NCBI RefSeq assembly: GCF_018069755.1
Contig: NZ_JAGQDE010000003.1
Location: 124,001-188,000, forward strand
Reading direction: 5' to 3'
DNA length: 64,000 bases
From: Ideonella aquatica
GTDB taxonomy: Bacteria > Pseudomonadota > Gammaproteobacteria > Burkholderiales > Burkholderiaceae_C
Shown here: in pieces, positions 5,659-21,147 of the stretch
Layout of the letters: each line of letters opens with the position of its first letter
How positions within the stretch are numbered: the first letter of the stretch is position 1
Made by a program: the position numbers and the translations under genes
The notes under the pieces: model-generated
The model's database searches: none
Told to the model about the DNA's origin: nothing
What the model saw: only the letters and a program-made list of their open reading frames with translations

Positions 5659-6624
5659 ATGCCCACGCGTATGACGAAGCCGTCCGATGCCGCCAACATC
5701 GACCTCCATCTCGTGAAGGTCCTGCACACCGTGATCACTGAACGCAGCGTCTCCCGTGCCGCGATGCGCCTGGGCAGCAGCCAGCCCCAGGTCAGCGCGC
5801 AGCTGCGCCGCCTGCGTGCGCTGACCGGCGACGCCCTGCTGGTGCGCGCCGGTGGCGGCATGGTGCCCACCGAGGCCGCACAGGCCATGCTGGTGCCCGC
5901 CGAGAGCCTGCTGCGCGAGGCCGAAGCGCTGTTCGGCGGCGCCCGCGTGCAGCGCCGCTTCGAGCCGCAGCGCGCCGAGATGACGCTGCGCATCGCCGCC
6001 AGCGACTACCTCGACCCGCAGTTCCTGCCCGGTGTCGCCGCCGAACTGCGCCGGGCGGCGCCGGGCCTGACGCTGGAGATCCATCCGCTGTCGGCCGAGT
6101 TCGACTACCGCCGCAAGCTGGCCTCGGGCGAGGTGGACCTGGTGATCGGCAACTGGCTGCGCCCGCCGGACGAACTGCACCTGGGCCGCCTGCTCAGCGA
6201 CGAGGTGGTCTGCCTGGTGGCCGCCGACCACCCCGCGGTGAAGAACCCGCGCAGCTGGACCGAGGAGCGTTACCTGGACGCCGAGCACATCGCCCCGATG
6301 CCGCTGCATCCCGGCGCGCTGGGCGTGATTGACGAGCACCTGGCAGCGCGCGGCCTGAAGCGGCGTATCGCGGTGCGCTGCGCCCACTTCGGTCTGGCAC
6401 CGCGCATGGTGGCCGACAGCCGTCTGGTGCTGACCACCGGTCGCCAGTTCTGCCAGCGCTACCTGGGCGCCCTGCCGCTGCGCATCGTGCGCTGCCCGGC
6501 CGGCTTTCCGCCGATGGCCTACTACCAGCTGTGGCACGACCGCGCCCATGCAGCGCCGGCCCAGCGCTGGCTGCGTGAGCAGGTGCGCGACGTGGCGCGT
6601 GCGCTGGCGGGGAGTGCTGCATGA
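5659..6624 (+). CDS. LysR-family transcriptional regulator of purine catabolism genes
   Basis: LysR-type regulator of about 320 aa. The N-terminal winged helix-turn-helix is clear (HLVKVLHTVITERSVSRAAM, then SSQPQVSAQLRRLRALTGD), followed by a substrate-binding effector domain. The divergent position next to xdhABC and the ATGA overlap with guaD downstream make it the likely activator of purine degradation, possibly responding to xanthine, guanine or urate (inference). The start is uncertain: ATGs at 5626, 5641, 5659 and 5671 are all in frame. The first two are disfavoured because they lie before or within the palindrome at 5632-5644. Neither of the others has an ideally spaced ribosome-binding site; AGGGA is at 5652-5656. 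Confidence 0.87.
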   Translation: MPTRMTKPSDAANIDLHLVKVLHTVITERSVSRAAMRLGSSQPQVSAQLRRLRALTGDALLVRAGGGMVPTEAAQAMLVPAESLLREAEALFGGARVQRRFEPQRAEMTLRIAASDYLDPQFLPGVAAELRRAAPGLTLEIHPLSAEFDYRRKLASGEVDLVIGNWLRPPDELHLGRLLSDEVVCLVAADHPAVKNPRSWTEERYLDAEHIAPMPLHPGALGVIDEHLAARGLKRRIAVRCAHFGLAPRMVADSRLVLTTGRQFCQRYLGALPLRIVRCPAGFPPMAYYQLWHDRAHAAPAQRWLREQVRDVARALAGSAA

Positions 6625-7955
6625 GCCTGCATGTGGGGCACGACCAGAAGCTGGCGCTGTTCGGCGACCTGCTCGATTTCACTGAAGCGCCACCACTCAC
6701 CGATCCAGGCGCCGAGCCCCGCTGGCGGCCGGCGCACTGGCTGCTGATCGAGCATGGCCGCATCGTCGGCGTCCAGCGCCACGAACCCGATGCCAGCTGG
6801 CCCAAGGAGCGCCACCCCGGCCGGCTGATCCTGCCCGGCTTCATCGACACCCATGTGCACAGCGCGCAGATCGATGTGCTGGGTGCCTGGGGCACCGAGC
6901 TGCTCGACTGGCTGGAACGCCACACCTTCCCGGCCGAGGCACGCATGGACGACCCCGAGCACGCGCGCTTCATCTCGGCGCTGTTCCTGGATGGCCTGCT
7001 GGCCACCGGCACCACCTCGGCGATGGTCTTCCCCACGGTGCACCGCGATTCGGTCGATGCGCTGTTCGAGGCCGGCAGCGCGCGCGGCATGCGCCTGATC
7101 GCCGGCAAGGTGCTGATGGACCGCCACGCCCCCGAGTTCCTGCGCGACGACGTGGCCCAGGCCGAGCAGGACTGCGTGGAGCTGATCGCCCGCTGGCACG
7201 GGCATGGCCGCCTGGCCTATGCGGTGACGCCGCGCTTCGCGCCCACCTCCACCGATGCCCAGCTGGCCATGGCCGGTGCACTAATGGCGGCGCACCCGGG
7301 CCTGTACATGCAGACCCACGTGGCCGAGAACCGCGACGAGGTGCGCTGGGTCAGCGAGCTGTTCCCCTGGTCGCGCAGCTACCTGGACGTGTACGAGCAT
7401 TTCGGCCTGCTGGGCCCGCGCAGCATGCTGGCCCACGGCATCTGGCTGGACAGCGACGACCGTGCCCGCCTGGCGGCCACCGGCGCCATGATCTCGCACT
7501 GCCCCAGCTCCAACCTGTTCCTGGGCAGTGGCCTGTTCGACTGGCCGGCGGCGCGCGCCGGCGGCGCCGCGGTGACGATGGGCTGCGATGTGGGCGGCGG
7601 CACCAGCCTGTCGATGCTGCGCACGCTGGCCGATGGCTACCAGGTGCAGGCCCTGGCCGGGCGGCGCATCACCGCCTGGGCGCTGCTGCACGCGGCCACC
7701 CGTGGCGCCGCCGAGGCCCTGGGTCTGGCCCATGAAATCGGCTCGCTCGAGCCCGGTACACTGGCCGACGTGGTCGTCTGGGACACCGCCCGTTCGCCCG
7801 TCGAGCGCCGCCGCCAGTCGGTGGCCCGCGACTTGCATGATGCGATCTTTGCCTGGCTGACCCTCGCCGGCGACGACCACGTGGTGAGCACCCGCGTGGC
7901 CGGCGTCGAGCGGTACCGGCGGCCGGCCGACCACGACGAGAAGCCCACCGCATGA
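6621..7955 (+). CDS. guaD: Guanine deaminase
   Basis: 444-aa amidohydrolase that converts guanine to xanthine and ammonia in the cytoplasm. The zinc ligands and family motifs are present: GFIDTHVHSAQ (His78, His80), QTHVAENRDEVRW, LAHGIWL, SHCPSSNLFLGSG and MGCDVGGGTSLSML, in the order found in bacterial guanine deaminases. Length is typical. It overlaps the LysR gene and the ABC ATPase gene by ATGA on both sides, so it is translated as part of one operon. Its product, xanthine, is the substrate of the divergently encoded XdhAB. Confidence 0.94.
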   Translation: MSLHVGHDQKLALFGDLLDFTEAPPLTDPGAEPRWRPAHWLLIEHGRIVGVQRHEPDASWPKERHPGRLILPGFIDTHVHSAQIDVLGAWGTELLDWLERHTFPAEARMDDPEHARFISALFLDGLLATGTTSAMVFPTVHRDSVDALFEAGSARGMRLIAGKVLMDRHAPEFLRDDVAQAEQDCVELIARWHGHGRLAYAVTPRFAPTSTDAQLAMAGALMAAHPGLYMQTHVAENRDEVRWVSELFPWSRSYLDVYEHFGLLGPRSMLAHGIWLDSDDRARLAATGAMISHCPSSNLFLGSGLFDWPAARAGGAAVTMGCDVGGGTSLSMLRTLADGYQVQALAGRRITAWALLHAATRGAAEALGLAHEIGSLEPGTLADVVVWDTARSPVERRRQSVARDLHDAIFAWLTLAGDDHVVSTRVAGVERYRRPADHDEKPTA

Positions 7956-9484
7956 CCTTCCTCCCCGCACGCCTCGAACTGCGCGGCATCACCAAGCAGT
8001 ACCCCGCGGTCCGGGCCAACGACAGCGTGGCGCTGAGCGTGGCCCCGGGCCAGATCCATGCGGTGCTGGGCGAGAACGGTGCCGGCAAGTCCACGCTGAT
8101 GAAGATCATCTACGGCGCGGTCAAGCCCGACGCCGGCGAGATCCTCTGGAACGGCCAGCCGGTGCAGGTGGCCAGCCCGGCGGCGGCGCGGCAGCTGGGC
8201 ATCAGCATGGTCTACCAGCACTTCTCGCTGTTTGACACCCTCACCGCCGCCGAGAACGTCTGGCTGGGCCTGGACAAGGCGATGAGCCTGGACGAGGTGA
8301 CGGCCCGCATCCGCGAAGTCGCCGCCGGCTACGGCCTGGAGGTCGACCCGCTGCGCCCGGTGCACACCCTCAGCGTGGGCGAGCGCCAGCGCGTCGAGAT
8401 CGTGCGCGCGCTGCTCACCAAGCCGCAGCTGCTGATCCTGGACGAACCCACCTCGGTGCTCACCCCGCAGGCGGTGGAGAAGCTGTTCGTCACGCTGCGC
8501 CAGCTCAGCAGCGAGGGCTGCTCCATCCTCTACATCAGCCACAAGCTCGACGAGATCCGCAGCCTGTGCCACCGCTGCACCGTGCTGCGCGGTGGCAAGG
8601 TGACGGGTGAGGTCGACCCCAGCCAGGAGACCAACGCCGGCCTGTCGCGCCTGATGATCGGCGCCGAGCCGCCGGCGCTGCACGCGCGCGCCGCCACGCA
8701 AGGCGCCACGGTGCTGCAGGTCCAGGGCCTGTCGCTGCCCACCACCGACCCCTTCGGCATGGCGCTGAAGGACATCGCGCTGGATGTGCGCGCCGGCGAG
8801 ATCCTGGGCATCGCCGGGGTCTCGGGCAATGGCCAGCAGGAGCTGATGGCCGCGCTCTCGGGCGAGGACCCGCGGGCGCCGGCCGGCTCGGTCACGCTGT
8901 TCGGCCACGACATCGCCACCGCCTCGCCGCGCAAGCGGCGCCACCTGGGCCTGCACTTCGTGCCCGAGGAGCGCCTGGGCCGCGGCGCGGTGCCCACGCT
9001 GTCGCTGGCCGCCAATACGCTGCTCACCCGCACCGAGGCCGTGGGCCGCGGCGGCTGGCTTGATCTGGCGGCCACGCGCGCGCTGGCGGCCAGCCTGATC
9101 GATCGCTTCAAGGTCAAGGCGGGCGGGCCGGATGCCGCGGCCAGGTCGCTGTCGGGCGGCAACCTTCAGAAGTTCATCGTCGGCCGCGAGATCGATGCGA
9201 ATCCGAAGCTGCTGATCGTCGCCCAGCCCACCTGGGGCGTGGACGTGGGCGCGGCCGCACAGATCCGCGGCGAGCTGCTGAAGCTGCGCGACGCCGGTTG
9301 CGCGCTGCTGGTGGTCAGCGAGGAACTGGACGAGCTGTTCGAGCTGAGCGACCGCCTGCAGGTGATCGCGCAAGGGCGGCTGTCGCCATCGGTGCCGGTC
9401 AAGGAGGCCACGGTGGAGATGATCGGCGAGTGGATGTCGGGCCTGTGGAACGCCGCCCCGGCCGCGCAGGGGGTGGCCGCATGA
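7952..9484 (+). CDS. Nucleoside/purine ABC transporter, tandem ATP-binding protein
   Basis: 510-aa ATPase with two ABC domains, as in the BMP-dependent nucleoside importers and sugar importers. Domain 1 has a full Walker A (GENGAGKST, residues 40-48), signature LSVGERQRVEI and Walker B LLILDEPTS. Domain 2 has a degenerate Walker A (GVSGNGQQELM), signature LSGGNLQKFIVGRE and a divergent Walker B (LLIVAQPTWGVDVG); this asymmetry is normal for the family. It overlaps guaD and the first permease gene by four bases each. The genetic coupling to guaD supports a purine base or nucleoside as substrate. Confidence 0.92.
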   Translation: MTFLPARLELRGITKQYPAVRANDSVALSVAPGQIHAVLGENGAGKSTLMKIIYGAVKPDAGEILWNGQPVQVASPAAARQLGISMVYQHFSLFDTLTAAENVWLGLDKAMSLDEVTARIREVAAGYGLEVDPLRPVHTLSVGERQRVEIVRALLTKPQLLILDEPTSVLTPQAVEKLFVTLRQLSSEGCSILYISHKLDEIRSLCHRCTVLRGGKVTGEVDPSQETNAGLSRLMIGAEPPALHARAATQGATVLQVQGLSLPTTDPFGMALKDIALDVRAGEILGIAGVSGNGQQELMAALSGEDPRAPAGSVTLFGHDIATASPRKRRHLGLHFVPEERLGRGAVPTLSLAANTLLTRTEAVGRGGWLDLAATRALAASLIDRFKVKAGGPDAAARSLSGGNLQKFIVGREIDANPKLLIVAQPTWGVDVGAAAQIRGELLKLRDAGCALLVVSEELDELFELSDRLQVIAQGRLSPSVPVKEATVEMIGEWMSGLWNAAPAAQGVAA

Positions 9485-10545
9485 TCCGCCTGATTCCGCG
9501 CCCGCAGCCCTCAAAGGCCATGTCCTTCGCCTCGCCGCTGATCGCGCTGGCGATCACCGTGCTGGTGGGCATCGCGCTGTTCAGCGTGCTGGGCAAGGAC
9601 CCGCTGAAGGCGCTGCAGGTCTTCTTCATCGAGCCGGTGAAGAACGGCTACGCGCTGTCCGAGCTGAGCGTCAAGGCGGTGCCGCTGGTGCTGATCGCCC
9701 TGGGCCTGTCGGTGTGCTACCGCTCGAACGTGTGGAACATCGGTGCCGAGGGCCAGTTCGTGCTGGGCGCGATCTTCGCCAGCGGCGTGGCCATGCAGGC
9801 CGGGCCCGACACCTCACGCTGGGTGGTGGTGCCGGTGCTGGCCGCCGGCGTGCTGGGCGGCATGGTCTGGAGCGGCATCGTCGCGCTGCTGCGCGACCGC
9901 TTCAACGCCAGCGAGATCCTGGTCAGCCTGATGATGGTCTATGTGGCCGACATGCTGCTGGCCTGGCTGGTCTACGGCCCCTGGAAGGACCCCAACGGCT
10001 ACAACTTCCCGCAGACCATCACCTTCGCCGCGGCTACCAAGATCCCGCGCCTGGTCGATGGCTGGCGCATGAACGTGGGCGTCTTCATCGCGCTGGCCGC
10101 GGTGCTGGGCCTGTGGGCCTTCCTGTTCCGCACCTACCGCGGCTTCTCGCTGCAGGTGGGCGGGCTGGCGCCCGACGCGGCGCGCTACGCGGGCTTCTCG
10201 TCGCGGCGCGCGCTATGGATCGCGCTGCTGATCAGCGGCGGCCTGGCCGGTCTGGCCGGCGGCCTGGAAGCGGCGGGCCCGCTGGGGCAACTCACCCCTT
10301 ACGTGCCGGCCGGCTATGGCTTTGCCGCGATCATCGTCGCCTATGTGGGGCGGCTGCATCCGGTGGGGGCGGTGTTCTCGGCGGTGCTGATGAGCATGTT
10401 CTACATCGGCGGTGAGCTGGCGCAGTCGCGCCTGGGCCTGCCCAAGGCCCTGACCGGTGTGTTCCAGGGCCTGCTGCTGTTCGCGCTGCTGGCCTGCGAC
10501 ACGCTGATCCACTACAAGCCACAGTTCGGACGGAGGGGCCCGTGA
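9481..10545 (+). CDS. Nucleoside ABC transporter permease (first subunit)
   Basis: 354-aa multi-spanning inner-membrane permease of the BPD_transp_2 family. Several hydrophobic helices are visible, starting with SPLIALAITVLVGIALFSVL. The family hallmark NVWNIGAEGQFVLGAIFASG is near residue 85, and the cytoplasmic loop RYAGFSSRRALWIALLISGG lies in the second half. The frame is open further upstream, but the ATG at 9481 overlaps the ATPase stop (ATGA) and gives the expected short, positively charged N-terminus before the first helix. It forms the membrane pore with the next gene's product. Confidence 0.92.
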   Translation: MIRLIPRPQPSKAMSFASPLIALAITVLVGIALFSVLGKDPLKALQVFFIEPVKNGYALSELSVKAVPLVLIALGLSVCYRSNVWNIGAEGQFVLGAIFASGVAMQAGPDTSRWVVVPVLAAGVLGGMVWSGIVALLRDRFNASEILVSLMMVYVADMLLAWLVYGPWKDPNGYNFPQTITFAAATKIPRLVDGWRMNVGVFIALAAVLGLWAFLFRTYRGFSLQVGGLAPDAARYAGFSSRRALWIALLISGGLAGLAGGLEAAGPLGQLTPYVPAGYGFAAIIVAYVGRLHPVGAVFSAVLMSMFYIGGELAQSRLGLPKALTGVFQGLLLFALLACDTLIHYKPQFGRRGP

Positions 10546-16464: not shown

Positions 16465-16977
16465 CTGAGCCTGCGCCAGCCGACCAGCCTTGACGACCTG
16501 CTGAACTACCGCCTGCTGCGCCTGCACGCCTACAGCGGCGCACCGGTGGTGCGCCTGTTGGAGGGCCGCTACGGCATCGCCCGCCGCGAATGGCGGCTGC
16601 TGGCGGTGCTGGCAGCGCAGGGGCCGTTGTCGCCGTCCGCCTTGGCCGAGGCCGCACAGCTGGACCGGCCACGCACCTCACGCGCCACTGGCGTGCTGGC
16701 CGCCAAGGGCCTGCTGAGCCGCCAGGTTCAGGCTGGTGACGCGCGCCGTGCCATGGTGGCGCTGACCGAGGCCGGCAAGCGCCTGCACGACGAGATCTTC
16801 CCGCAGGTGGCGGCGGTCAATGCCCAACTGGTGGCGGTCCTGCACGACGCCCAGGTGGCCGTGCTGGATCAGGCGCTGACGCAGCTGACCGAGCAGGCCC
16901 GGCGCCTGAACGCCGAGCTGGCGCAGGACGTGCGCGCCGACCGCCGGGCAGGCGGCAGCCGGCGTGTGCGGCCTTGA
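16465..16977 (+). CDS. MarR-family regulator with no canonical start codon at the expected position
   Basis: Winged-helix MarR regulator. Conserved sequence begins upstream of any ATG, GTG or TTG: SLDDLLNYRLLRLHAYSGAP is encoded from about 16486, but the first ordinary start codon in frame is GTG 16546 and the frame closes at a TGA at 16438-16440. CTG 16465, six bases after GGGA, or CTG 16453 are the only plausible starts for a full-length protein. Later parts are standard: YGIARREWRLLAVLAAQGPL, LDRPRTSRATGVLAAKGLLS, GDARRAMVALTEAGK. It probably controls the divergent Bug/hydrolase operon through the adjacent palindrome. Full-length 170 aa from CTG 16465; 143 aa from GTG 16546, which would lose the first dimerisation helix. 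Confidence 0.75.
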   Translation: MSLRQPTSLDDLLNYRLLRLHAYSGAPVVRLLEGRYGIARREWRLLAVLAAQGPLSPSALAEAAQLDRPRTSRATGVLAAKGLLSRQVQAGDARRAMVALTEAGKRLHDEIFPQVAAVNAQLVAVLHDAQVAVLDQALTQLTEQARRLNAELAQDVRADRRAGGSRRVRP

Positions 16978-16993
16978 CGGTTATGCTGGGGCG

Positions 16994-17530
16994 ATGAGCG
17001 ACTGGACTGTCTCCGACGCCCGCGCCGATCTGCGTGAGGCCTACCTCGATGGTGCCCCCGGGGTGGCGGCGTCCTCGCTGGCCTGGCTGGTGGCGGCCGG
17101 TGTGGCCGCGCAGGTCTCGGCCCAAGCCGCGGTGCTGGCGCTGCTGCTGGGCGGGGCACTGATCCATCCGGTGGGCGTGCTGCTGGCCAAGGCGCTGGGC
17201 CGGCGCGGTACGCACACGCCGGGCAATCCGCTGGGCACGCTGGCGGTCGAGGGCACGCTGTGGATGCTGGGCGGCATCGCGGTGGCCTACGGCTTGCAGG
17301 TGCTGCGCATCGAGTGGTTCTTTCCGGCGATGCTGCTGACGATCGGTGGGCGCTATCTGACTTTCCAGTCGCTGTACGGCCTGCGCGTTTACTGGCTGAT
17401 GGGCGGCGTGCTGATGGCCGTGGGCTTGGCCTTGGCGCTGCTGCGGGCGACGCCGCTGCATGCGGCGCTGGCCGGGGGCGTGATCGAGGCGGTGTTCGCC
17501 GCCGGGCTGCTGGTGCGGGCGCGCCGCTGA
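16994..17530 (+). CDS. Conserved small integral membrane protein
   Basis: 178 aa with about five or six hydrophobic helices and a short soluble N-terminus (MSDWTVSDARADLREAYLDG). I recall a domain of unknown function with this DAR-x-DLREAY-x-G beginning (possibly DUF7010) but cannot confirm it. No catalytic motif seen. It starts 16 bases after the MarR stop, so it could be co-transcribed with the regulator. ATG 16994 is chosen over an upstream GTG/ATG extension because it starts the conserved region. Confidence 0.72.
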   Translation: MSDWTVSDARADLREAYLDGAPGVAASSLAWLVAAGVAAQVSAQAAVLALLLGGALIHPVGVLLAKALGRRGTHTPGNPLGTLAVEGTLWMLGGIAVAYGLQVLRIEWFFPAMLLTIGGRYLTFQSLYGLRVYWLMGGVLMAVGLALALLRATPLHAALAGGVIEAVFAAGLLVRARR

Positions 17531-17531
17531 G

Positions 17532-17921
17532 TCACGGGGCAGCGTGGCAGGCCACGCCCAGCTTGTTGCCGTCGGGGTCGCGGAAGTAGGCGCCCCAGTA
17601 GTGCGGGTGGTAGTGCGGCCGCAGGCCCGGCGGGCCCTCGCAGCGGCCGCCCAGCTTCAGCGCGGTGGCGTGGGCGCGGTTCACCTGCTCGCGCGTGGCG
17701 GCCAGCAGCGCCACCATCTGGCCGTTGCCGGGCGCGTGCTCGCCCTCGAAAGGACGACCGATCAGCAGCAGCGGTCGCGGCCCGGGCGTGCTCTGCCAGG
17801 CGGCCCAGGGGCGGCTGCGGTCGACGAAACGCGGCGCGATCTCCAGCACCTCGGCCAGCGCGCTGTAGAAACCCAGCGCTCGCTCGAAATCGGTGACGCC
17901 GATGAAGACGTGGGACAGCAT
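17532..17921 (-). CDS. VOC-superfamily (glyoxalase/bleomycin-resistance-like) protein
   Basis: 129-aa single-domain vicinal oxygen chelate protein. Start MLSHVFIGVTDFERALGFYS is the usual first beta-alpha-beta unit with metal His4; the end, HYHPHYWGAYFRDPDGNKLG, matches the VOC consensus. Substrate unknown; relatives bind or modify small electrophiles, antibiotics or do nothing catalytic. The start at 17921 is chosen because upstream in-frame residues do not match the family. It is divergent from the Rieske oxygenase by 30 bases and converges with the membrane-protein gene with a one-base gap. Confidence 0.87.
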   Translation of the reverse strand: MLSHVFIGVTDFERALGFYSALAEVLEIAPRFVDRSRPWAAWQSTPGPRPLLLIGRPFEGEHAPGNGQMVALLAATREQVNRAHATALKLGGRCEGPPGLRPHYHPHYWGAYFRDPDGNKLGVACHAAP

Positions 17922-17951
17922 GGCGCCGCAGTCTACGGGTAAGCTGGCTTC

Positions 17952-18911
17952 ATGGGCTACGAACACGATGTCGCGCACCCGCTGCTGCGGGTGGAGGAAC
18001 TGGGCGACGCGCCGCAGGCGCTGCGCCTGCTGGGCGAGGACTGGGTGGTCTGGCGCGACGGCCAGGGCCAGGCGCGCGCCGCGCGCGACCAGTGTCCGCA
18101 CCGCGGCGCGCGGCTGTCACTGGGCCGCGTCTGCGCGGGTCAGCTGGAGTGCCCGTACCACGGCTGGCGTTTCGACGGCGACGGCCGTTGCGTCGCCATC
18201 CCCGCGGTGCCGGGCTTCACGCCGCCAGCGTCGCATGGGCTGGCCGCGCAGCCGCTGGTGGCCTTCGCTGGCCTGTGGTGGCTGGTGCCACCCGGGTCCA
18301 ATCCACCGGTGTTCGCTGCCGAGTCCGAGCCGCGGCTGCGCAAGCTCACCGTCGGCCCGTTCGATGTGGCCACCAGCGCGCCGCGGGTGGTGGAGAACTT
18401 CCTGGACATGGCGCATTTCGGCTTCGTGCACGAGGGCTGGCTGGGCGAGCGCAGCCATGGCGAGGTGCCGCCCTACCAGGTGGACGCCACCCTCGACGGC
18501 CTGCACGCCCACGGCTGCCGCGCCTGGCAGCCGCGCAGCAACCTGCAGTCCACCGAAGGCTCCTGGGTCGACTACAGCTACCGCGTGCCGGCGCCCTACA
18601 CGGCGGTGCTGGAGAAGGCGCCCGATGCCCAGCAGGGCTGGCGTGAGGGCATCGCCCTGTTCATCTGCCCGCAGGACGAGGAACGCAGCCGTGCCTGGTT
18701 CCGCCTGGCGGTGCCTGACTGGGACAGCAGCGACGAGCAGGTGGCGGCCTTCCAGCACACCATCTTCGCCCAGGACCAGCCGGTGCTGGAGTCGCAGCGG
18801 CCGCGCCGCCTGCCGCTGAGTGGCGAGGTGCACAGCGCCGCCGACCGGATGTCCAGCGCCTACCGGCGCTGGCTGCGCGAGCGGGGCGTGGGCTTTGGCG
18901 TCCTGCCCTGA
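17952..18911 (+). CDS. Rieske [2Fe-2S] non-haem iron oxygenase, alpha subunit
   Basis: 319-aa aromatic-ring-hydroxylating or demethylating oxygenase subunit. Rieske ligands: Cys48 and His50 (CPHRGARLS), Cys67 and His70 (CPYHGW). Mononuclear iron motif: ENFLDMAHFGFVHEG with Asp152, His155 and His160, the normal D-x2-H-x4-H spacing. It is shorter than naphthalene-dioxygenase alpha subunits and closer in size to VanA/Pdmo-type enzymes. No reductase or ferredoxin gene is adjacent, so electrons must come from elsewhere. Substrate not identifiable from sequence. Confidence 0.9.
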   Translation: MGYEHDVAHPLLRVEELGDAPQALRLLGEDWVVWRDGQGQARAARDQCPHRGARLSLGRVCAGQLECPYHGWRFDGDGRCVAIPAVPGFTPPASHGLAAQPLVAFAGLWWLVPPGSNPPVFAAESEPRLRKLTVGPFDVATSAPRVVENFLDMAHFGFVHEGWLGERSHGEVPPYQVDATLDGLHAHGCRAWQPRSNLQSTEGSWVDYSYRVPAPYTAVLEKAPDAQQGWREGIALFICPQDEERSRAWFRLAVPDWDSSDEQVAAFQHTIFAQDQPVLESQRPRRLPLSGEVHSAADRMSSAYRRWLRERGVGFGVLP

Positions 18912-20129
18912 TCAGGCCAGGTCCAGCGTCGGCACGCCCTGGTAGCGGCCGACCAGGCACTGGGCCAGCACGCAGGCCAGGCCCATGTCACCGGTCCACA
19001 GGCCGTGCCAGGGCTGGCCGTGCTGATGCTGCAGGGCCCGCATCTGGCCGATGGCGTGCATCGCGAAGGCGCGCGCCCGCTGCAGCCAGCGCTCGTCGCC
19101 CTGGCGGGCATGCAGCGCCAGCAGCGCCAGCGCGTTGCCGGCCGTGCCGTGGCAGACGCCAGGGCCCTTGGCCAGCGGGCCGGCCTGCCAGATGGCTTCG
19201 CCAGCGGCGGCCAGCAGCGCCTCAAACTCAGCGTCCAGGTTCGAGGGCAGGGCGTTCATCGCGCACAGGATGCCCGGGGCGCCATGGCACCACTGCAGCA
19301 GGGCCAGCGCGCCGCCGGGGCGCGGGGTGTACAGGCCGGGCGGCCAGTTGGCCAGCGCGCCCTCGCGGCGCGCGGTGCGGCTCAGCGTGTCGATCGCCAG
19401 GGCCTGCAGCGCCGCGCGCTCAGCCTCGGGCAGCCAGGCGCTGGCCAGCAGCAGCGCATGCAGGTTGCCGGCAAGGCCGTGGCCGGCGCCCAGGTAGATC
19501 ACCTCGCGGCCATGGATGGCCTGGGTCCACACCTGGCAGCCGCTGTCGTCATGGCGGTGCAGGCCGGCCATGACGGCGCTGACGTTGGCGCGCAGTTCGT
19601 CCACGGCGCGTGGGTCGTTGGCCAGGTGCGCCAGGTGCCAGGCCCCGAGCATCGTGCCCGGGGCGCCCCACAGCGCCTCCTGGCTGGGATGGTGGCGGTT
19701 GGCGGCCGCCACGGCCAGCAGGCGGCTGGCCGCGTCATCGCGGCCGGTCAGCCGCCACTGCACCAGGCGCAGGCCCGCCTCGCCCAGGAACCAGGAGGGC
19801 AAGGGCTCGCCGTTGTCGGGCGCGCGCTGCCAGGCCGCGGCCAGCGCGTCGACGCGCGCCGCCGGGTCCCATGGCAGCGAGGCGTGGCCCTGGCGGCGCA
19901 GCCACCACAGCGCCCACAGCAGGCCGGCGCCGCCCAGGTACAGGCCCTTGAAGCCGCCGTCGGGGGTGTCGCCCGCGTCGTCGCGGGGATGCACGGGCCA
20001 GGTACCGTCGGGACGGGCCGCGGCCTCGCAGGTGCTGACGATCTCCTGCACGGTGGCGCGTGCAGCGTCCGCATCCCAGGCCGGTGCGTCCAGCGGCGTG
20101 TGTCGTTCGGGGTGGAAGATCAGGCTCAT
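18912..20129 (-). CDS. LanC-like (lanthionine synthetase C-like) protein with intact zinc site
   Basis: 405-aa alpha/alpha toroid of the LanC/LANCL superfamily. Seven GxxG-type helical repeats are visible: YLGGAGLLWA, WFLGEAGLRL, LWGAPGTMLG, YLGAGHGLAG, WCHGAPGILC, VCHGTAGNAL and LWTGDMGLAC. The zinc ligands are Cys281 (WCHG), Cys326 and His327 (CHG), 45 residues apart, matching NisC (Cys284, Cys330, His331); His217 fits the NisC catalytic His212. No LanB/LanM dehydratase or lantibiotic precursor is nearby, so it is not an ordinary lantibiotic cyclase. Eukaryotic LANCL enzymes add glutathione to dehydroamino acids in proteins. Here a GST gene is in the same operon. Start 20129 overlaps the upstream GNAT stop as ATGA; an in-frame ATG four codons upstream is less likely. 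Confidence 0.88.
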   Translation of the reverse strand: MSLIFHPERHTPLDAPAWDADAARATVQEIVSTCEAAARPDGTWPVHPRDDAGDTPDGGFKGLYLGGAGLLWALWWLRRQGHASLPWDPAARVDALAAAWQRAPDNGEPLPSWFLGEAGLRLVQWRLTGRDDAASRLLAVAAANRHHPSQEALWGAPGTMLGAWHLAHLANDPRAVDELRANVSAVMAGLHRHDDSGCQVWTQAIHGREVIYLGAGHGLAGNLHALLLASAWLPEAERAALQALAIDTLSRTARREGALANWPPGLYTPRPGGALALLQWCHGAPGILCAMNALPSNLDAEFEALLAAAGEAIWQAGPLAKGPGVCHGTAGNALALLALHARQGDERWLQRARAFAMHAIGQMRALQHQHGQPWHGLWTGDMGLACVLAQCLVGRYQGVPTLDLA

Positions 20130-20527
20130 CCGGGGCGCCACTCCATCAGTCGGTCGGGCGCGGCCGGTGGGCCGAAGCCGAAGAGGCGGTACAGCGCGTG
20201 GGCGTCGCGCGTGGCCAGCAGCCAGCGGCGCAGGCCCTGGAGCTCGGGGTGGCCGGTGATCGCGCCCAGCAACTGGCGCGCCAGACCGCGGCCGCGGTGC
20301 GATTCCAGCACGTAGACATCGGCCAGGTAGGCGAAGCTGCTGCGGTCGGTGATGACCCGCGCGAAGCCGACCTGGGCGCCGTCGTCATAGACGCCAAAGC
20401 ACATCGAGTGGGCGATCGCGCGCGCCACCTTCTCGCGGGCGATGCCGGGCGACCAGTAGGAGCGGCTGAGGAAGGCGTGCACCGCGTCCAGGTCGATGCG
20501 CGCCGGGTCGTCGCTGACCTCGATCAT
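20126..20527 (-). CDS. GNAT-family N-acetyltransferase
   Basis: 133-aa acetyltransferase. It shows SYWSPGIAREKVARAIAHS, then YLADVYVLESHRGRGLARQL with the acetyl-CoA-binding RGRGLA, and ends LLATRDAHALYRLFGF with the typical C-terminal Tyr. Small enough to be a single domain. Substrate unknown. It is the middle gene of a three-gene coupled set: its ATG overlaps the GST stop and its stop overlaps the LanC-like start, both as ATGA, so the three proteins should be made together. Confidence 0.86.
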   Translation of the reverse strand: MIEVSDDPARIDLDAVHAFLSRSYWSPGIAREKVARAIAHSMCFGVYDDGAQVGFARVITDRSSFAYLADVYVLESHRGRGLARQLLGAITGHPELQGLRRWLLATRDAHALYRLFGFGPPAAPDRLMEWRPG

Positions 20528-21147
20528 GGCGCGGCCACCACGCCGTCGCCGTGCGGCGCGCGCTGGAAGCTGGGCTGCTGTTCGGCCTGGGCCGACAGCG
20601 CTGCCAGCGTGGGGTAGGGCGCCGGGTCGACACCGCCCAGCGTGGCCATCAGGAAGTGCCAGACCACGGCGCTGGTGATCGCGTCCTGGGTGGGCTGCTG
20701 CCAGTCGACCGGCTGGCCGGCGTGGGCGGCCTCCAGCGCCGCCAGGCCGCCCTGCATCTGCATCGTCACGCGGTCAACCCAGGGCTGGTGGCGTTTCTCC
20801 TCGGGGCGGATGGCGCGCTCGTAGACCAGCTGCACCGCCTTCTCGCAGGCCGCCAGCGCCAGGCCCAGGCGGTGCAGCGCCTGGCGGCGCTCGGGCAGGG
20901 TGCGGGGCATCAGGCTGCGTGGCGCGGCCAGGGCCTCGGCGTAGTCCAGGATCAGCGTCGAATCGGTCAGCATGGTGCCGTCGTCGCACACCAGCGTGGG
21001 CGCCTTGACCACCGGGTTGATGCGGCGGAACTCGTCGACGTGGCGGAACACCGACAGCGGCCGGTGCTGGAAGGGCAGGCCCAGGGCCTGCAGCGAGACC
21101 GCCACGCGGCGGACATAGGGCGAATCGAGCATGCCGATGAGTTGCAT
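20524..21147 (-). CDS. Glutathione S-transferase family protein
   Basis: 207 aa with an N-terminal thioredoxin-fold GST domain: MQLIGMLDSPYVRRVAVSLQ, in which Ser9 is the likely thiolate-stabilising residue, the cis-Pro segment VKAPTLVCDDG, and the glutathione gamma-Glu contact LTDSTLILDY. An all-helical C-terminal domain follows. Conjugates or carries glutathione in the cytoplasm. First gene of a GST-GNAT-LanC-like operon and divergent from the alpha-2-macroglobulin gene by 60 bases. Confidence 0.9.
   Translation of the reverse strand: MQLIGMLDSPYVRRVAVSLQALGLPFQHRPLSVFRHVDEFRRINPVVKAPTLVCDDGTMLTDSTLILDYAEALAAPRSLMPRTLPERRQALHRLGLALAACEKAVQLVYERAIRPEEKRHQPWVDRVTMQMQGGLAALEAAHAGQPVDWQQPTQDAITSAVVWHFLMATLGGVDPAPYPTLAALSAQAEQQPSFQRAPHGDGVVAAP

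Follow-up and report, generated by a model that had tools for sequence, protein, structure and literature searches.

In this study, we describe a LanC-like protein encoded by the last gene of a three-gene cluster of Ideonella aquatica, located in a stretch of 64,000 nucleotides that was analysed as a whole (the window), and propose, with a probability of about 0.5, that it is a stand-alone, zinc-dependent thia-Michael enzyme of the LANCL kind, probably using glutathione and having no fixed partner genes. The LANCL enzymes of animals and plants use glutathione to cap protein residues that have been damaged. By sequence profile and predicted model, rather than by a rooted tree, the Ideonella protein is closer to LANCL1/2 and GCR2 than to the lanthipeptide cyclases among solved structures. 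It belongs to a clade of patchy, stand-alone bacterial proteins that has apparently been transferred horizontally. The exact arrangement of the three genes is recent and local, and the operon matters less than the LanC-like protein itself.

LanC chemistry has been described as intramolecular in bacteria, giving lanthipeptides, and as intermolecular in eukaryotes, with glutathione (PMC9934072). A survey of 2024 places eukaryotic sequences apart from those of bacteria in its trees, and was unable to decide which of the two functions, damage repair or lanthipeptide synthesis, came first (PMC11251773); orphan LanC homologues have been found with NisC as the driver (PMC3091789). Among the titles listed in our literature search, none dealt with a bacterial stand-alone LANCL-type family or with an operon of glutathione S-transferase (GST) and LanC. 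A stand-alone bacterial clade that is nearer to LANCL than to the known cyclases would make the question of the ancestral function testable by simple assays.

Methods

The locus set comprised 120 loci, reduced by 11 duplicates and by one locus lacking a LanC match (L135) to 108, many of which are shortened by contig ends; L136 is a LanM-type locus. Residues were counted in an alignment of 102 rows (101 loci and the window), from which four loci with a stop inside the gene (L034, L076, L082, L117) and three of low score (L122, L123, L136) were left out. ORF calling with a codon model missed LanC in 3 of the 108 loci. The upstream neighbours numbered 88 after removal of two LanC fragments from 90.

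Results

The three-gene cluster

An earlier note, made from the letters of the window, had presented GST, GNAT and LanC-like genes as fused into one translationally coupled operon. Three complete, open frames are indeed present on the minus strand, and both ATGA overlaps between them were read directly (Table 1); the genes are separate reading frames and are not fused. The ORF list starts the LanC-like gene at a GTG at 20141; a start at the ATG at 20129, which lies within the overlap, is more likely. Overlaps of four bases are not unusual upstream of LanC-like genes: with the beginning of the LanC match as the reference point, 5 of 90 upstream slots have one, that of L017 among them, and the overlap of L065 escapes this measure. 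A promoter and terminator scan found none. The closest solved relative of the GNAT is 2ozh (XCC2953, a hypothetical protein). Between the window and Ideonella alba, dN/dS was 0.33 for LanC, 0.10 for GNAT and 0.08 for GST, so all three genes look functional, with LanC the least constrained.

Table 1 Positions of the features of the cluster (in the window) and of the L093 gene run (in that locus)
Feature	Position	Strand	Basis or remark
Glutathione S-transferase (GST), 207 aa	20524..21147	(-)	ORF; Pfam GST_N_3, 3.1e-23
GNAT acetyltransferase, 133 aa	20126..20527	(-)	ORF; Pfam Acetyltransf_1, 7.1e-15
Putative LANCL-type stand-alone LanC-like protein, 405 aa	18912..20129	(-)	Pfam LANC_like, 3.3e-25; profile, model, Foldseek
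ATGA overlap, GST stop/GNAT start	20524..20527	(-)	Read directly
ATGA overlap, GNAT stop/LanC-like start	20126..20129	(-)	Read directly
His217 codon	19479..19481	(-)	Conserved in 101/102 rows, one gap
Cys281 (predicted zinc ligand; LANCL1 Cys276) and His282 (LANCL1 His277) codons	19284..19289	(-)	Alignment
Cys326 and His327 (predicted zinc ligands; LANCL1 Cys322, His323) codons	19149..19154	(-)	Alignment
L093 LanC	6001-7203		Same strand as run
L093 GNAT	7229-7744		Same strand as LanC, 25 bases on
L093 GFA, "glutathione-dependent formaldehyde-activating enzyme"	7863-8273		Same strand as LanC
L093 ABM	8270-8665		Same strand as LanC
L093 VOC	8662-9048		Same strand as LanC
L093 GST	9045-9704		Same strand as LanC

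Downstream of the LanC-like gene lies a convergent Rieske oxygenase gene with its end at 18911, and the gene diverging upstream of the GST is presumably YfhM-like. The 5' ends of this VanA-type Rieske oxygenase gene (17952-18911, plus strand) and of a VOC/glyoxalase ORF (17532-18101, minus strand) overlap as listed, the true start of the latter probably lying further in. The genes of a MarR-type regulator and of a DUF7010 protein overlap at 16546-17530 (plus strand).

Family and fold of the LanC-like protein

The protein matched PF05147 (LANC_like) with 88.9 bits, against a curated cut-off of 23.2. When a 13-row profile was run against the PDB sequences with E up to 10, it returned LANCL2 (1.2e-32), LANCL1 (about 1e-31) and GCR2 (2.5e-28), followed by LicM2 (3.8e-6) as the sole further match; NisC and MadC were not reached. 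In Foldseek, the nine best matches of an AlphaFold model of the protein (pLDDT 86.4, pTM 0.90) were all to LANCL1, LANCL2 and GCR2, with MadC (4.9e-8), CuvL (8.1e-7), LicM2 (3.0e-6) and NisC (4.7e-5) lower down. A model of the 102-row clade scored 110 bits on a GCR2 stretch and 23-63 bits on LanC-domain proteins at eight other bacterial loci. All three comparisons place the protein with the LANCL kind, which is in favour of the reading given in the earlier note.

It is highly improbable that the protein is an orphan lanthipeptide cyclase serving precursors and a dehydratase encoded elsewhere. It does carry a LanC domain, and its best NCBIfam match is LanL, although at 88.8 bits this lies far below the cut-off of 650. 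Against this reading, LANCL is nearest both by profile and by Foldseek, and a PF05147 search of the genome found this one protein and no LanM, LanL or LanKC. A LanB search (PF04738) found no match in the genome, and was equally silent in 14 of 14 control genomes, so that a LanB gene may still be present. Among small Cys-containing ORFs (25-110 aa, clustered at 1e-5) within 3 kb of the 108 loci, none recurs beyond close kin or other family-limited groups, and no lanthipeptide precursor was seen. The single PF05147 protein, the LanB search with its silent control and the lack of a recurrent Cys-containing ORF together make the lanthipeptide reading unlikely.

Active site and glutathione contacts

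The zinc ligands of LANCL1 are Cys276, Cys322 and His323, and its His277 sits near the substrate carbonyl (PMC9934072). Alignment places C281, C326 and H327 of the window protein at the three ligands and H282 at His277, so that the zinc site claimed earlier, together with His217, is intact with numbering from the ATG at 20129; the plain GxxG pattern occurs eight times and not seven, as had been stated. Conservation over the 102 rows was complete for C326 and H327 and reached 101/102 for C281 and H282. Bacterial LanCs predominantly carry Tyr where eukaryotic LANCLs have His277, and His is found there in some LanMs as well (PMC9934072), for which reason the His is not decisive for the LANCL type.

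Glutathione is contacted in LANCL1 by Arg4 and Lys317 at its Gly end, by His274 at the Cys carbonyl, and by His323, Arg364, Asp367 and Glu374 at its Glu end (PMC9934072). This full set is not found in the window protein: in the sequence alignment Lys317 (as K321) and His323 are kept, whereas His274 is replaced by Q279 and, with less sure equivalence, Arg364 by Q369, Asp367 by Q372 and Glu374 by T379. K321 and Q279 are present in 102/102 rows, D381 in 101/102, R9 in 99/102 and T379 in 95/102, and H10 is near-invariant over the same rows, while the Arg364 and Asp367 columns are variable, the former holding Arg in 23/102. As far as alignment can tell, the catalytic centre is retained and so is the contact to the Gly end, but not those to the Glu end; that R9 stands in for LANCL1 Arg4 would be a guess.

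The replaced contacts could also mean that the pocket has been rebuilt for a thiol other than glutathione, or for a protein cysteine. The clade-wide Q279, D381, R9 and H10, where LANCL1 has other contacts, fit this alternative, as does Arg at column 374 (window numbering) in 93/102 rows, although the window protein has Trp there. We nevertheless consider it unlikely, as the equivalent of Lys317, a contact of the glutathione Gly end, is invariant, and the majority of the searched host genomes carry a gshB-type gene. The gshB-type domain (PF02955) was found in 49 of 51 chosen host genomes, with E of 6.2e-51 or better in 48, the misses being a Rubrivivax MAG and the genome with a contig labelled Actinomycetota. 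Since glutathione makers dominate the phyla of these hosts and PF02955 also matches in 9 of 14 control genomes, this result lends glutathione weak support.

Spread and phylogeny of the clade

When genomes drawn from the family, the order and the phylum were searched with the 13-row alignment, the LanC-like protein was present in 37 of 399, 6 of 399 and 7 of 398, respectively; the three draws have genomes in common, and the weakest matches resemble LanM or LanL in their length. Among named genomes, a scan gave 259 relatives, of which the best 80 were taken up. Among these 80, the closest is Ideonella alba 4Y16, with a LanC-like protein 95% identical to that of the window, and the majority of hosts are Burkholderiales and their neighbours; the remainder are Gammaproteobacteria, Alphaproteobacteria, Myxococcota, one cyanobacterium and the one contig labelled Actinomycetota. 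Because the 80 are the best of 259, distant relatives are under-sampled; Burkholderiales dominate. The contig of L032 is labelled as a Bordetella parapertussis MAG, a label that may be wrong, its protein grouping with environmental rows in the tree.

A quick tree of the 102 rows (SH-aLRT only) does not track species, which we read as horizontal transfer. Nannocystis (Myxococcota) falls inside a Burkholderiales-rich group, Sorangium groups with Microvirga, and the four rows from Ideonella split into two separate pairs, with no resolved relation between them. LanC-like genes with an internal stop or in pieces occur at L034, L076, L082 (genome G640) and L117 (G662), and in genomes G592, G610, G722, G725 and G783; it is as if the gene were frequently lost, or as if assembly errors had broken it.

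These broken copies in relatives, the long branch (0.89) to the pair of the window and I. alba, the highest dN/dS of the three genes and the Trp at column 374 would all suit a protein that is diverging or decaying, with little activity left in the window lineage. Such decay seems very unlikely to us, given zinc ligands that are intact, a dN/dS well under 1, and the chance that some of the broken copies are assembly errors.

Conservation of the gene trio

Among the 108 loci, the homologous GST-GNAT-LanC trio was found in the window and I. alba only, so the trio does not stand as a conserved system. With the window proteins as queries on the best 80 of the 259 loci, GST and GNAT again lay beside LanC in I. 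alba only, and one weak match to the window GST was seen, in L079. Ideonella sp. B508-1 and I. oryzae (L029, L031) showed no homologue of the window GST or GNAT within the fetched flanks. With 1e-50 as the upper limit for E, 41 of 279 relatives had a homologue of the window GST; thirty of these were fetched with flanks of 1.5 kb, and at the 28 other loci none adjoined, within these flanks, a homologue of the window GNAT or LanC.

GST genes near LanC-like genes

Using a GST model built from the loci, GST genes were detected in the flanks of 10 of 108 loci against 3.0 expected, and within 500 bp in five (L017, L047, L067, L065 and L079) against 0.31 expected (P 1.8e-5). The expectation derives from 180 matches to PF13417 alone in 59.7 Mb of ten chosen host genomes, five of which are the genomes where a GST adjoins LanC; in the window genome there are 14 such matches. 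GST had been chosen beforehand by the earlier reader, and the P values are uncorrected for the number of families testable. The five loci represent four tree lineages, requiring at least four changes on starred branches; leaving out the Ideonella locus gives three lineages (P 0.004), and setting aside the case of maleylacetoacetate isomerase (MaiA) as well gives P 0.039. Counted by slots, on the assumption of 950 genes per Mb, GST accounted for 4 of 88 upstream neighbours and for none within 500 bp downstream, with 0.59 expected in 187 slots (P 0.003). When the ORFs of the best 80 of 259 loci were clustered all against all (at least four loci, 1e-8), LanC and its shadow frames being set aside, GST was the only cluster with several close members in several lineages.

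The GST of L065 overlaps LanC by ATGA on the same strand, and in L079 the stop of GST lies one base before the TTG start of LanC, again on the same strand; in two Paraburkholderia loci the GST and LanC genes diverge. These GSTs are 15-26% identical to that of the window, and the one in L079 is MaiA (209 bits, NCBIfam cut-off 171). In 98 of the 108 loci, the fetched flanks contain no GST, many of these flanks being cut by contig ends. GSTs adjoin the LanC-like clade more often than genome density predicts; those adjacent outside Ideonella are unrelated to the GST of the window.

The L093 gene run and other neighbours

L093, a Pseudoxanthomonas MAG, contains a same-strand run of LanC, GNAT, GFA, ABM, VOC and GST (Table 1), of which the last four are linked by three ATGA overlaps, with an AsnC-type regulator upstream. 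A second lineage thus has GST and GNAT in one row with LanC, in a gene order other than that of the window, and no homology was detectable between the two GNATs. Together with the GST excess, this run argues against purely opportunistic neighbours, and the glutathione link suggested by the two is a good lead.

The earlier note envisages GST as the supplier or releaser of glutathione, the LanC-like enzyme as the catalyst of its addition to dehydroamino acids or electrophiles, and GNAT as the enzyme that marks a product. The LanC-like protein is of the LANCL kind, and the tight overlaps in the window, the five adjacent GSTs, the two tight same-strand pairs (L065 and L079) and the L093 run, which raised our estimate of it somewhat, speak for such a system. 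The proposal remains improbable as a whole, because the homologous trio is confined to two Ideonella, the great majority of loci lack a flanking GST, the adjacent GSTs belong to different subfamilies, and four of the LANCL1 glutathione contacts are replaced.

Other neighbours vary widely, 110 Pfam families being represented among 88 upstream proteins. VOC genes adjoin LanC in L029, L031 and L050 and an ABM gene does so in L032, and a VOC model built on five loci detected a single further case, weak and distant, in 109 loci; all of these are raw counts. Acetyltransf_1 was present in 2 of 88 upstream neighbours and in four of the 97 downstream ones; three of these four come from related loci. 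Acetyltransf_CG was present at L028. A CoA-transferase gene precedes the LanC-like gene on the same strand, 0-83 bases off, in six related loci (L104, L105, L106, L117, L119 and L051; 6 of 88 upstream neighbours). A PP2C-type phosphatase gene lies directly upstream on the same strand in L023, L025 and L035 (3 of 88, one clade), which is of interest because pSer and pThr can yield dehydroamino acids.

Discussion

In the mechanism that we favour, a zinc ion held by C281, C326 and H327 would activate a small thiol, most likely glutathione, which would add to a dehydroalanine or dehydrobutyrine residue or a similar electrophile with the assistance of H282 and H217. The LanC-like gene would need no partner: it appears to have spread horizontally and to have no fixed neighbour in its many contexts, several of which hold other glutathione or detoxification genes. 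In the Ideonella lineage, its position behind a GST and a GNAT gene would lead to co-expression.

More tentatively, and with somewhat less than even confidence, the results may point to a LANCL-type family of bacteria's own, stand-alone and horizontally spread, that joins dehydroamino acids or related electrophiles to a small thiol, be it glutathione or another; it could represent damage repair parallel or ancestral to the eukaryotic kind, with GST and glutathione genes repeatedly recruited to its operons. The L093 run moved us slightly towards this broader view.

Comparison with known systems

The window GST is an ordinary member of the bacterial family of its closest solved relative, 3lxt/3m0f (5.6e-60), and is unusual solely by its position before the GNAT and LanC-like genes. 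Class I LanC (NisC, MadC) and the cyclase domains of LanM, LanL and LanKC have the same predicted fold as the LanC-like protein and give weaker Foldseek matches than LANCL; unlike them, it has no detected dehydratase or precursor partner, and it has His, not Tyr, after the first zinc Cys. With eukaryotic LANCL1 and LANCL2 and plant GCR2, it shares the alpha/alpha-toroid fold of its model, the putative CCH zinc site, a single stand-alone domain, and the His and Lys at the places of LANCL1 His277 and Lys317. It differs from them in an identity of about 20% in the Foldseek alignment and in the residues Q279, D381, R9 and H10, near-invariant in its own clade, and from LANCL1 in the replacement of His274, Arg364, Asp367 and Glu374.
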